Shown one piece after another: positions 29,799 through 36,243 of a stretch of 49,073 nucleotides of DNA (its first letter is position 1; every line of letters begins with the position of its first letter). A program made the position numbers and the translations under genes. Under the pieces are notes generated by a model that was given only the letters and a program-made list of their open reading frames with translations, ran no database searches and was not told where the DNA came from. This stretch comes from Betaproteobacteria bacterium (GTDB lineage: Bacteria > Pseudomonadota > Gammaproteobacteria > Burkholderiales > SG8-41), in NCBI GenBank assembly GCA_900299145.1, contig OMIN01000079.1:1-49073 (forward strand), in the 5' to 3' direction.

Positions 29799-29929
29799 AA
29801 CTATTTTTTAATTGGCGAATTCATTGCCCGCAACACGCCGTGCCCCGCATTTTTACCCGCGTCGGTATCGCCGTCAAATGACCGTGACGGGCGCGCGCCG
29901 AGCCGATATCCGGGTAGAAGGAGATTTTG

Positions 29930-31000
29930 ATGATTTTCCGGCAACTGTTTGATCCGCAATCGTCCACTTACAGCTATCTGCTGGCCGATGAAAAAAGCGG
30001 CGAAGCCGTGCTGATTGATCCCGTGTTTGAACAGGCGCGGCGTGACCGTGCGCTGCTGGCGGAATTGGGCGTGACTTTGCGCTACACACTGGAAACCCAC
30101 GTGCACGCCGATCACGTCACCGGGGCATGGTTGCTCAAGCAGCGGTTGGGCAGCCGCATTGCGCTGTCTGCCGCGAGCAGCGCGGAGGGGATCGACGTGC
30201 CGCTGGCGCACGGCGATCGCGTACCCTTCGGCGAGCGTTATCTGGAAGCGCGGGAAACACCGGGGCACACCAACGGCTGCATGACCTTTGTACTCGACGA
30301 TGAATCAATGGCGTTCACCGGCGATGCGCTGCTGATCCGTGGCTGCGGCCGCACCGATTTTCAGCAGGGCAGTGCGCGAACGCTGTATCGTTCCGTGCAC
30401 AGCCAGATATTCACGCTGCCGCCTTCATGCCTGCTGTACCCGGGGCATGATTACCGCGGCCTGACTGTCACCAGCGTGGATGAAGAACGGCGGCTGAATC
30501 CGCGGTTGGGCAGTGGCATCGGTGAAGCGGATTTCGCCGGCTATATGAATAATCTGGGATTGCCCCATCCGAAGCAGATTGATGTCGCCGTGCCCGCGAA
30601 TCAGCGGTGCGGCAAGCTGGCCGACGGACAAACGCTGGCGGCCGAACCCGCATGGGCGCCGCTCACCTTTACCTTTGCCGGCATCTGGGAAATTGTGCCG
30701 CATGCTCTCGAAGAAATTTCCAGTAACGTGCAAGTGGTTGATGTGCGCGAAGCCACGGAATTCAGCGGCCCCTTGGGGCACATCAAGGGGGCTGTCCTCA
30801 TTCCGCTGGGTGAATTGGCGGCGCGCGCGGGCGAACTGTCGCGCGAGCGGCCAGTGGTCGCGGTGTGCCGTTCCGGCGCGCGTTCGGCACAAGCCTGTGT
30901 AATTCTTCAACGACAGGGATACAACGACGTGGCGAATCTGGCGGGCGGCATGCTGCGCTGGCGCGCGGAAGGTTTTGCGGTGCAAGGGGGGCGGCAGTAG
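29930..31000 (+). CDS. Persulfide dioxygenase-like MBL-fold protein fused to rhodanese
   Basis: A 356-residue fusion. Residues 1-230 form an ETHE1-like metallo-beta-lactamase domain with [10 protein letters not shown] (HxHxDH near residue 57), [30 protein letters not shown] and [14 protein letters not shown]. Residues about 255-356 form a rhodanese domain with active Cys in [14 protein letters not shown] near 314. ETHE1 enzymes oxidise glutathione persulfide to sulfite, and the rhodanese part moves sulfane sulfur; the fusion suggests sulfide or sulfane-sulfur detoxification. I chose the ATG at 29930, 8 bases after AGAAGGAG, over the in-frame TTG at 29927. It stands alone; no sulfide:quinone reductase is nearby. 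Confidence 0.92.
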
Positions 31001-33310: not shown

Positions 33311-33575
33311 GGTTTTCTCCGTTCATTCTCGGGTTGATACAGCGATACACGATTCGCCAGCACGCTGCCCGCGCCGGGCCTTCAAGATGTGGGCTTGCGT
33401 CGTGACGGGGGTTGCGGGTAGCCGCGTTAAATTACTCCGCGCCAGTCGCCCATGTCAATTGAGTGGCGAGGGGTGGCGGGCCTGAGCATTACGCACACGG
33501 CAATCGCATGCACCTTCGGAGCGCCACGGCAAAATCCGCTACACTCGCCGGTGAACACATTCGTTGGGAGTCACC

Positions 33576-35216
33576 ATGTCCAGCAATTCCAGCACATCAC
33601 AGGTTTACGATCCGGTCGCGCCGTGTCTCACGCTGCCACGGCAGTCACGCCAGACGCTTAACAGCCTTGCCGGCAAGACCATCGGTTTTATCGACAACTC
33701 CAAACCGAATTTCAATCTTCTGGTCGAGGATTTGTCGCGCGAGCTGATTGAGAAGCACGGCGTGAAAGCTGTGGTCAAGCAGCGCAAACGCAGCGCTTCG
33801 CAGGGCCTGTCCGAATCGTTGATGAACGAACTGGTGTCGCAGACAGACGCTGTCATCACCGGCTCGGGCGATTGAGGTTCCTGCACGTCGTGGAGTATCC
33901 ACGACACGGTAGAAGCGGGTAAGCGGGGCCGGGCGGCACTGACGGTGGTGTCGCAGAGTTTTATCGGATTGGGAAAGGCGCAGCAAAAGGCGCTGGGCTC
34001 GCCGGATTTACCGATCGCGGTGATCCCGCATCCGTTCGGCACGCGATCACGCGAGGAACTGCGTGAAATTGCCGCGAAAGCCGCCGGCGATATCGCACGG
34101 CTGTTGTGCGAGGCCGCGCCCGCTAGCGCCAAGGTAGCTGCCGCCGCGCCAACGGTGCCGCGCGCCAAGCTGGTCGAAGCACCCTCTGATCTGGCGGAAC
34201 TTAACAAGTTCTACATGCAACGCCGCTGGGGCGACGGCCTGATTATCGCACCGCCGACGCGAGAGGCTGTCGAGCGCATGCTACGCCACACCAACCGCAA
34301 GCCCGACGACGTGGTGGCGACGATCGCGCCGGGCATGGGCGCGGCGACGGTCGAATACATCGCGATCCAGGGTGTGATGGCGGGGTGTTACCCGGAATAT
34401 CTGCCGGTGCTGATCGCAGCGGCGGAGGCCGTCGGTACACAAAGATTTCATTTGCAGGCGATCCAGTCGACCACCAATCCGTCGGCGGTGTGGCTGCTGG
34501 TGAACGGGCCGATTGCGAAGTGGCTGGAGGTCAACAGCGGTGCCGGCTGCCTGGGGCCGGGCACGTGGGCGAATGCCACGCTGGGGCGCGCGCTACGCTT
34601 GATACTGCTCAATATCGGCGGCGCACTACCCGGCGACATTGACAAGGCGACACAAGGGCAGCCGTCGAAGTACACCTTTTGCTGCGCGGAAAACGAAGAA
34701 GCCAATCCGTGGGAGCCGCTGCATGTTGAACGCGGCTTTGCGCGCGACGCGAATACGGTGACTGCCATCGGTGCGCTCGGCACGTGGAGCATGAACATGA
34801 CGGCCAAGGGGCCGGAAGAGGTGCTCGCCATGATTGCCGACACCATGCAATATCCGGCCAGCAGCGATTACATGTACGGCGGCGCGCCGTTCATTATTTT
34901 GTCGCCGCAACACGCGCAGTTGTTTCACCGCGCGGGCTGGAGCAAAGCCGAGGTGAAGCGCCGGCTGTGGGAACAATCCAAAATTCGCGCGGGCCGTTCC
35001 AAAGGCAGCGAGTTCGAGCGCATGGCCACCGGCCGCCGCGCGGAACTGGGCGACATTACGCCCGACAGCATGGTGCCGATTTCGGTGCAGCCCGACGATA
35101 TCAGCATCATCGTCGCTGGTGGCGCAGGCTCGCACTCCGTTTTTGTGCCGGTGTCCGCGCATACACGTTCGGTGACGAAGGAGGTGGTGTTGACCGAAAG
35201 TGGTGTCAGAGAATAA
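33576..35216 (+). CDS. UGSC-family selenoprotein with in-frame UGA (Sec100), two-domain form
   Basis: One frame of 546 residues runs from ATG 33576 (GGGAG upstream) to 35216 with a single interruption, TGA at 33873-33875. Before it the protein reads DAVITGSGD, after it GSCTSWSIHDTVEAGKRG, which gives the U-G-S-C redox motif of the UGSC selenoprotein family with selenocysteine at residue 100; homologues often have CGSC. No stop or frameshift occurs between the TGA and the 69 open bases before the next methionine-type start. A perfect hairpin at 33887-33905 is suited to SelB. Residues about 178-546 are a second domain (EAPSDLAELNKFYMQRRWGD onward) whose function I do not recognise. Possible redox role; the substrate is unknown. 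Confidence 0.88.
33887..33905 (+). promoter_or_regulatory. Putative bacterial SECIS element
   Basis: A seven-base-pair perfect stem GTCGTGG, loop AGTAT, CCACGAC lies inside the coding sequence. The loop begins 18 bases after the TGA, within the 16-37 base spacing described for bacterial SECIS elements, and has G at its second position, as those elements need a G in the first two loop bases. It would recruit SelB and selenocysteyl-tRNA. Confidence 0.8.
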
Positions 35217-35271: not shown

Positions 35272-36243
35272 GTGATATCACTACGACCCCTGTTGGCCGC
35301 TAGTGCGCTCGCTTGCCCGTCGGCATCACTTTGCGCTGCGGACTACCCCACCCGCGCCATCCGCATGATCGTGCCGTTCAGCGCGGGTGGTGCCGCTGAC
35401 ATCATTGCGCGGCTGATGGGCGTGCGTCTGACGGAGTCGCTGGGCCAGCCCATCGTGATCGACACTCGCCCCGGTGGTGGTACGGTGCTCGGCACGGAAA
35501 TCGTGGCGCGCGCCGCACCCGATGGTCATACGCTGGGCATGCTGGCCACATCGCTGGCGCTGAACACCGGGTTGCTATCGAAAATTCCCTACGATTCGGT
35601 GAAGGATTTCGCGCCGATTACGCTGGCGGTGGACACGCCGTTGATCATCGTGGTGCCCGCCGCGCTATCGGTGAAAACTCTGCCGGAGTTCATCGCGCTC
35701 GCAAAGACCAAGCCGAATCGCATTGCCTACGGCTCGTCGGGGCAGGGCACCAGCGGGCATCTGGCAAATGAACTGCTGAGTTTCCGCACCGGCATCACTA
35801 TGCTGCATGTGCCGTATAAGGGGGCGGGGCCTGCGTTGATTGATCTCATCGGCGGTCAGGTGCAAATGGTGTGCACCAGCACGCTGCCGGCGTTGCCGCA
35901 TGTGCGTTCGGGGCAGCTTCGCGCACTGGCAGTGACGACTGCCGCCCGCACACGCGCTGCGCCCGACGTGCCTACAGTGGCCGAGGCGGCGTCGCTGCCG
36001 GGTTATCGCGCCAGTACCTGGTACGCCCTCTTCGCACCGGCGCGGACAGCGCCACCGATCATTGCCACGCTGCACCGCGCCTCGGTGCAGGCGTTGAAGA
36101 ACCCTTCGGTTGTGGATCAGCTCGCTGCGCAGGGCGGCGACCCCATCGCCAGCACGCCGGACGAACTGCGTAAATTCCTGCAGAGCGAAATCGACGTGTG
36201 GACAAAGGTGATTAAAGTGGCGGGGATCAAGCCGGCCAATTAA
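35272..36243 (+). CDS. Bug/TctC-family substrate-binding protein
   Basis: A 323-residue Bug protein starting with GTG at 35272. The signal peptide RPLLAASALACPSASLCAAD is short and ends near residue 22. The ligand segments are MIVPFSAGGAADIIARLMGV, IDTRPGGGTVLG (Thr replaces Asn of VDNRPG), PDGHTLGML, HVPYKGAGPALIDLIGGQVQ and PDVPTVAEAASLPGY. It follows the UGSC selenoprotein by 55 bp on the same strand and may be co-transcribed. It is bracketed by repeat copies 8 and 9, about 1.05 kb apart. Confidence 0.92.
   Translation: MISLRPLLAASALACPSASLCAADYPTRAIRMIVPFSAGGAADIIARLMGVRLTESLGQPIVIDTRPGGGTVLGTEIVARAAPDGHTLGMLATSLALNTGLLSKIPYDSVKDFAPITLAVDTPLIIVVPAALSVKTLPEFIALAKTKPNRIAYGSSGQGTSGHLANELLSFRTGITMLHVPYKGAGPALIDLIGGQVQMVCTSTLPALPHVRSGQLRALAVTTAARTRAAPDVPTVAEAASLPGYRASTWYALFAPARTAPPIIATLHRASVQALKNPSVVDQLAAQGGDPIASTPDELRKFLQSEIDVWTKVIKVAGIKPAN

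Follow-up and report, generated by a model that had tools for sequence, protein, structure and literature searches.

The 49,073-nucleotide stretch of DNA analysed here (the window) carries a gene whose UGA is almost certainly decoded as selenocysteine (Sec) by the SelA, SelB and tRNA-Sec of the host, with a hairpin just downstream, as judged from sequence comparisons. The gene product joins a UGSC domain to a second domain without a named family (Table 1). The overall best explanation, which we favour if only slightly, is that the protein is an enzyme of two modules whose mode of action resembles that of protein B in glycine or proline reductase.

Table 1. Positions in the window of the selenoprotein gene, its parts and its downstream neighbour
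Feature	Positions	Strand	Basis
Gene for a predicted selenoprotein of 546 residues, a UGSC-Unknown_1 fusion with Sec as residue 100	33576..35216	+	single frame with one TGA; 46-sequence alignment; model
UGSC domain (residues 22-178) with a predicted fold of alternating alpha/beta type	33639..34109	+	PF24696, E 2e-43; model
TGA predicted to be read as selenocysteine, UGSC motif, codon 100	33873..33875	+	TGA in paralogues and relatives; CGSC in others
SECIS-like hairpin with a stem of 8 bp and the loop GUA (33895-33897)	33887..33905	+	folding, shuffles, pairing in the family
Putative substrate module: second domain (Unknown_1; residues 199-546), without a named family	34170..35213	+	profile searches, model
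TctC-type solute-binding receptor, possible uptake partner (inferred)	35272..36243	+	PF03401, E 2.4e-72; starts 55 bases past the stop

The first-pass annotation had described a single frame with one TGA and no frameshift, and had expected standard annotation to split it into pieces of about 99 and 423 codons. The frame was confirmed by ORF reading from the ATG at 33576 to a TAA at 35214-35216, with the sole internal TGA in the protein context ITGSGD-U-GSCTSWSIHD. Ordinary ORF calling gives exactly such pieces, 99 codons from the ATG and 423 aa from a GTG (33945-35216); the upstream ORF as listed starts at a TTG at 33564 and has 103 aa. The UGSC domain matches PF24696 with 148.9 bits (cut-off 25) over model positions 15-171 of 172. 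NF041046, the NCBIfam UGSC model, reaches 111.3 bits over positions 2-146 of 147, under its cut-off of 125, so that UGSC membership does not extend to this stricter model and a pipeline relying on it may leave the window protein unnamed. The expectation that annotation would miss the gene also held for a relative: a UGSC fusion with TGA on plasmid p2-T1 of Acidovorax sp. T1 (L126, 7998-9551), 65% identical, is annotated merely as a 96 aa hypothetical protein ending at the TGA.

A scan of named genomes matched at least 581 stretches, with at least 565 relatives, of which the best 80 loci were fetched. Of the UGSC domains in 79 of these best 80, 117 include the Sec column (three further UGSC matches without this column were left out of the count), and the codon there is TGA in 114, TGC in two and CAG in one. 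The motif of the family begins with Sec or Cys; the window protein has UGSC at residue 100, while Variovorax SRS16 and a haloarchaeon, Natrinema zhouii, have the Cys form CGSC, so that U or C stands at this residue in homologues as had been anticipated. To our knowledge haloarchaea do not use Sec. Both residues are lost in two relatives, which read QGVT (L070, at 4093) and MGTS (Vibrio europaeus, L130, pVEu); both are fusions with a degenerate motif, so the second domain may function without Sec or Cys.

The host genome (5.5 Mb in 158 contigs, 99.69% complete) was searched for the genes of Sec synthesis and insertion. selA, selB, tRNA-Sec (selC) and selD each gave one match over the cut-off, the tRNA-Sec at 74.5 bits, in agreement with the earlier claim that the host uses selenocysteine. 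The first three all lie within C110:61967-66572, and selD has a TGA of its own. Another UGSC fusion, at C110:60066-61718, adjoins selA and is divergent from it. Altogether 19 UGSC domains were found in this genome, each with one in-frame TGA, at the motif. A GRDB-family gene is also present (L125 on contig C134; 45.4 bits against a cut-off of 22), whose Pfam match stops at an in-frame TGA belonging to a UPNC motif that lies just past the match; this gene represents a second, GRDB/PrdB-like selenoprotein type in the host genome.

ORF calling and one annotated relative do divide the gene at the TGA, as would be expected of two separate genes, the TGA being either a genuine stop or a sequencing error. 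We regard this reading as very improbable, given TGA in 19/19 paralogues and at the motif codon in 114 of the 117 fetched domains, Cys at the same position in relatives, and complete Sec machinery in the genome. Two genes or a frameshift were therefore rejected for the single frame of the window gene.

A hairpin with a G in its loop, and with the loop starting 18 bases after the TGA, had also been claimed. Such a hairpin was found, in which bases 15-22 pair with bases 26-33 (counting the T of TGA as 1); the loop starts 19 bases past the TGA at minimum energy and 18 with the closing A-U pair open. A hairpin with an early loop G just after UGA is what a bacterial SECIS element requires, and the window gene has one. 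Its energy of -18.1 kcal/mol corresponds to a z of -2.24 against dinucleotide shuffles, 2/200 of which were as good. With synonymous-codon shuffles the window copy has a z of -1.80 at the SECIS position and of -1.71 and -1.56 at its own control positions; because these values are alike, the SECIS evidence rests on the family and not on the single hairpin. A search of the window with Rfam at the gathering threshold gave no match.

Family folding was assessed on 128 distinct 48-base stretches. Against synonymous-codon shuffles the mean z is -1.58, with 56 of 128 at p ≤0.05, compared with -0.39 (12/127) and -0.48 (20/128) at two control positions. UGSC copies without TGA have no folding excess (TGC z 0.77 and -0.29; CAG z -0.42). 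The stem register of the window is 82% paired over the 128 sequences versus 22-50% when slid; 94 sequences fit this register, 15 a second one and 19 neither. Two-sided stem changes were seen, from G-C to C-G in eight sequences at one pair and from G-C to A-T in eight at another. By a loose criterion, taking the hairpin nearest base 23, a G occupies one of the first two loop bases in 117/128 and the loop starts at base 23 in 78/128. At the family level a SECIS-type hairpin is thus present beyond chance. Together with the PF24696 match and the Sec genes of the host, it bears out the original assignment of the window gene to the UGSC selenoprotein family.

The second domain was examined through its fusions, which numbered 46 after removal of those that were incomplete, held Ns or lacked a start. 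The alignment of 46 sequences comprises 45 fusions and the window protein, L049, nearly identical to L048, having been omitted. Pfam and NCBIfam searches of 46 second-domain members gave nothing convincing, with isolated weak matches in one member each, and a PDB sequence search with the second domain found no match. Matching by eye in the host genome places this domain fused to 9/19 UGSC domains and adjacent to 8/19; for the remaining two, on C76 and C89, it is absent from the match list. In the fetched loci 55/117 UGSC domains are fused to it, 57 are adjacent, three lie at contig ends and two are alone, the 112/117 fused or adjacent being a count from loci that were chosen through the second domain itself. 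Vineibacter terrae, a cultured carrier, has the two domains in separate genes. On a FastTree of 131 UGSC domains (no support values used) the state changes 14 times between fused and separate. From this pattern and these changes the UGSC and second domains look like functional partners. A new architecture had been suggested at the outset; this was rejected, because Zhang and Gladyshev had already described a UGSC/"Unknown_1" fusion in 2008, as far as the available text of that paper goes (PMC2398784), and fusions are common. We infer, on the same available text, that Unknown_1 of the 2008 paper is the second domain described here.

Modelled alone, the second domain reached a pLDDT of 91.6, and the first 16 structural matches of this model are Leishmania fumarate hydratases (best E 2.1e-4), which we take to be class I enzymes. 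These matches would agree with the second domain being the enzyme, perhaps hydro-lyase-like on dicarboxylates, and UGSC a regulatory or electron-transfer accessory, as would the two members whose motif has neither Sec nor Cys but which retain the second domain. The TM scores of 0.24-0.27 with rmsd above 13 and the missing PDB sequence match speak against it, and its retention in 114/117 argues for a central role of Sec; we consider this arrangement unlikely. With TM scores this low, the fumarase matches were not read as evidence of homology.

The model of the whole fusion has a mean pLDDT of 92.9 and a pTM of 0.93. In its UGSC part strands and helices alternate, and the Sec lies between strand 92-98 and helix 101-116. 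Structural matches of the UGSC model in the PDB are weak, the best being a glycosidase (E 4e-4, TM 0.19), followed by lumazine synthase, WrbA, flavodiiron proteins and others, while PDB sequence relatives gave nothing meaningful (one irrelevant match at E 2.6). A Trx-like fold was proposed for UGSC in the 2008 paper, in the part of it that was available (PMC2398784). This fold is unsupported here, given the regular strand-helix alternation and the absence of any thioredoxin from the best 50 of 1570 structural matches, and UGSC is predicted from the model to be an alternating alpha/beta domain that is not thioredoxin-like.

In line with the same 2008 proposal, to the extent of its available text (PMC2398784), UGSC could be a reductant of thioredoxin-like type that is partnered by the second domain, making the fusion a thiol-disulfide or peroxide-type redox protein. 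The UxxC motif would fit. Besides the predicted fold, the Cys of the MAGC motif in the second domain varies (MAGG in 1/9, and in 2/23 among the rows listed), and matches numbering up to 58 per genome and receptor neighbours better suit catabolism. We judge a redox protein of this kind to be improbable.

Profile comparison points elsewhere for UGSC. An hhalign comparison with a PrdB/GrdB-like profile scored 41.9 (E 1.4e-5, probability 80) and aligned both the Sec and the Cys columns; none of 100 column shuffles reached this score (best 20.1), the reversed profile gave 11.0 and masking of the motif left 35.6. The profile was built from five sequences, L125 of the host with L131, L132, L133 and L135, of which L133 has Cys and L135 is below the Pfam cut-off; L134 was excluded, having no Sec-type motif. 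The second domain gave nothing against this profile (E 0.4). PF07355 (GRDB) had no match up to E 1 in the window protein or nine fusion members, nor had TIGR04483 in the window protein. For PF09338, the GrdE/PrdA-type partner, there was one weak match (E 0.29) in 1/9 fusion proteins, and it is absent among the 25 families listed (62 more) for 116 neighbours. The hhalign result speaks for distant kinship of UGSC with PrdB/GrdB, not membership. The covered literature, with few subscription journals and including the available portions of PMC2398784, PMC13188914, PMC5029168, PMC9312934, PMC9402790 and PMC10838667, holds no UGSC-PrdB/GrdB homology link.

Five of the ten neighbouring proteins scanned in the window are TctC. 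In relatives, the operon-like neighbours (n=116) include 36 TctC and 12 SBP_bac_5 proteins, with any other family at two or fewer. Through differences in gene picking, a slightly different set of 114 was used for comparison by position: TctC-like proteins make up 35/114 operon-like neighbours versus 13/85 other direct neighbours, 12/143 genes two away, 7/117 three away and 30/334 at four or more. TctC genes are hence common in UGSC loci anyway, as the distant genes indicate, and the neighbours of UGSC are enriched in solute-binding receptors. Pyridine-nucleotide disulfide oxidoreductases are only 2/116 of the operon-like neighbours, so UGSC genes do not regularly have a reductase of their own beside them; in Variovorax, a trxB is found a few genes away from a Cys form. 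Elsewhere in the window, 29927-31000 encodes a protein in which a rhodanese domain is linked to a metallo-beta-lactamase fold.

Going by sequence and gene context, the window protein is likely a two-module catabolic enzyme for imported acids. The UGSC module would hold the selenolate at the strand-helix junction with the Cys three residues on, and the second module would bind and position the substrate. The selenolate may then attack a carbon of the imported carboxylic acid and a bond would be cleaved, as in protein B of glycine/proline reductase; we consider this attack somewhat less likely than not. The Cys of UxxC would close a selenenylsulfide, and a thioredoxin-type donor would restore the enzyme. 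Paralogues with different second modules may act on different substrates supplied through neighbouring TctC or ABC receptors. That UGSC is tied to transporters and to a particular chemistry would be testable.

Several known systems are comparable. With the UGSC protein already described (PF24696, NF041046; UGSC/Unknown_1 of 2008, in its available text) the window protein has in common the Sec motif, the domain and apparently the kind of fusion; here, however, it is one of 19 in a genome, and an alpha/beta model and a receptor neighbourhood are described. GrdB/PrdB share with UGSC the UxxC Sec motif, listed for both in the available part of a 2026 review (PMC13188914), and a profile-level similarity with aligned Sec columns, but the window protein has no Pfam GRDB match and the partner domain of UGSC has no clear likeness to GrdE/PrdA. 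FarB, a GrdB-like selenoprotein of Cloacibacillus porcorum, is a proposed fluoroacetate reductase according to the text available (PMC10838667). Selenolate attack on a substituted carboxylate was likewise proposed there and the operon includes a transporter, whereas FarB is, per its authors, a glycine-reductase protein B component, comes from a rumen bacterium and has other partner genes.

UGSC occurs in 5/398 genomes sampled from the phylum, the host genome included (one of the five without TGA in the match), in 44/399 sampled from the order, 41 of them over the cut-off, and in 74/74 genomes searched from the family of the host. The best eight candidates per genome were scored in the phylum and order samples and the best 40 in the family sample; four genomes scored in full hold 58, 40, 35 and 21 UGSC matches, some of them fragments. 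The 58 belong to G447, a member of the same family (5.7 Mb, 98% complete, 2% contamination). By eye, 54 of its 57 listed matches hold TGA and 51 have no stop other than one TGA, with a few fragments among them. A few UGSC matches in the four genomes lack TGA (for example G432:C18:335422 and G447:C76:16708).

In the available portions of published surveys, UGSC is among the most abundant environmental selenoprotein families (2008, PMC2398784), has a table row of 26 and 33, read here as organisms and genes (2016, PMC5029168), and has largely uncharacterized functions (2026, PMC13188914), while the largest bacterial selenoproteomes are given as 57 and 63 genes (PMC13188914). No UGSC expansion of this kind is described in the covered literature, which takes in the available parts of the same six papers and few subscription journals. 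With less than even probability, UGSC-Unknown_1 proteins might form a large group of selenoenzymes, each specific for its substrate, that has gone unrecognised, an analogue of protein B and a main way in which the host's family opens imported carboxylates, with about 50 such genes in one genome. A genome with about 50 selenoprotein genes of one family would then rank among the largest selenoproteomes known. UGSC genes drop out of annotation when TGA is taken as a stop. What deserves following is the expansion, together with the pattern of partner domains and the link with PrdB.

Relatives were also found on plasmids (24 records), and no match was found in phages. Seven plasmid relatives were fetched and the Sec position was determined in five, with TGA in L126 and L128, Cys in L127 and L129 and Met in L130. 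Two plasmid relatives adjoin PEP mutase-family genes, one together with an FAD oxidase and the other with CoA transferase/lyase genes. A literature search on Acidovorax sp. T1 found nothing related. Its p2-T1 is a conjugative IncP plasmid with an IS1071 transposase in the same stretch as the UGSC fusion, which neighbours FAD oxidase, PEP mutase-family and EPSP synthase genes. Among the loci, L045, L048, L051, L094, L106, L110 and L123 come from metagenome bins that bear the title Bordetella parapertussis but look environmental, and these titles look wrong.
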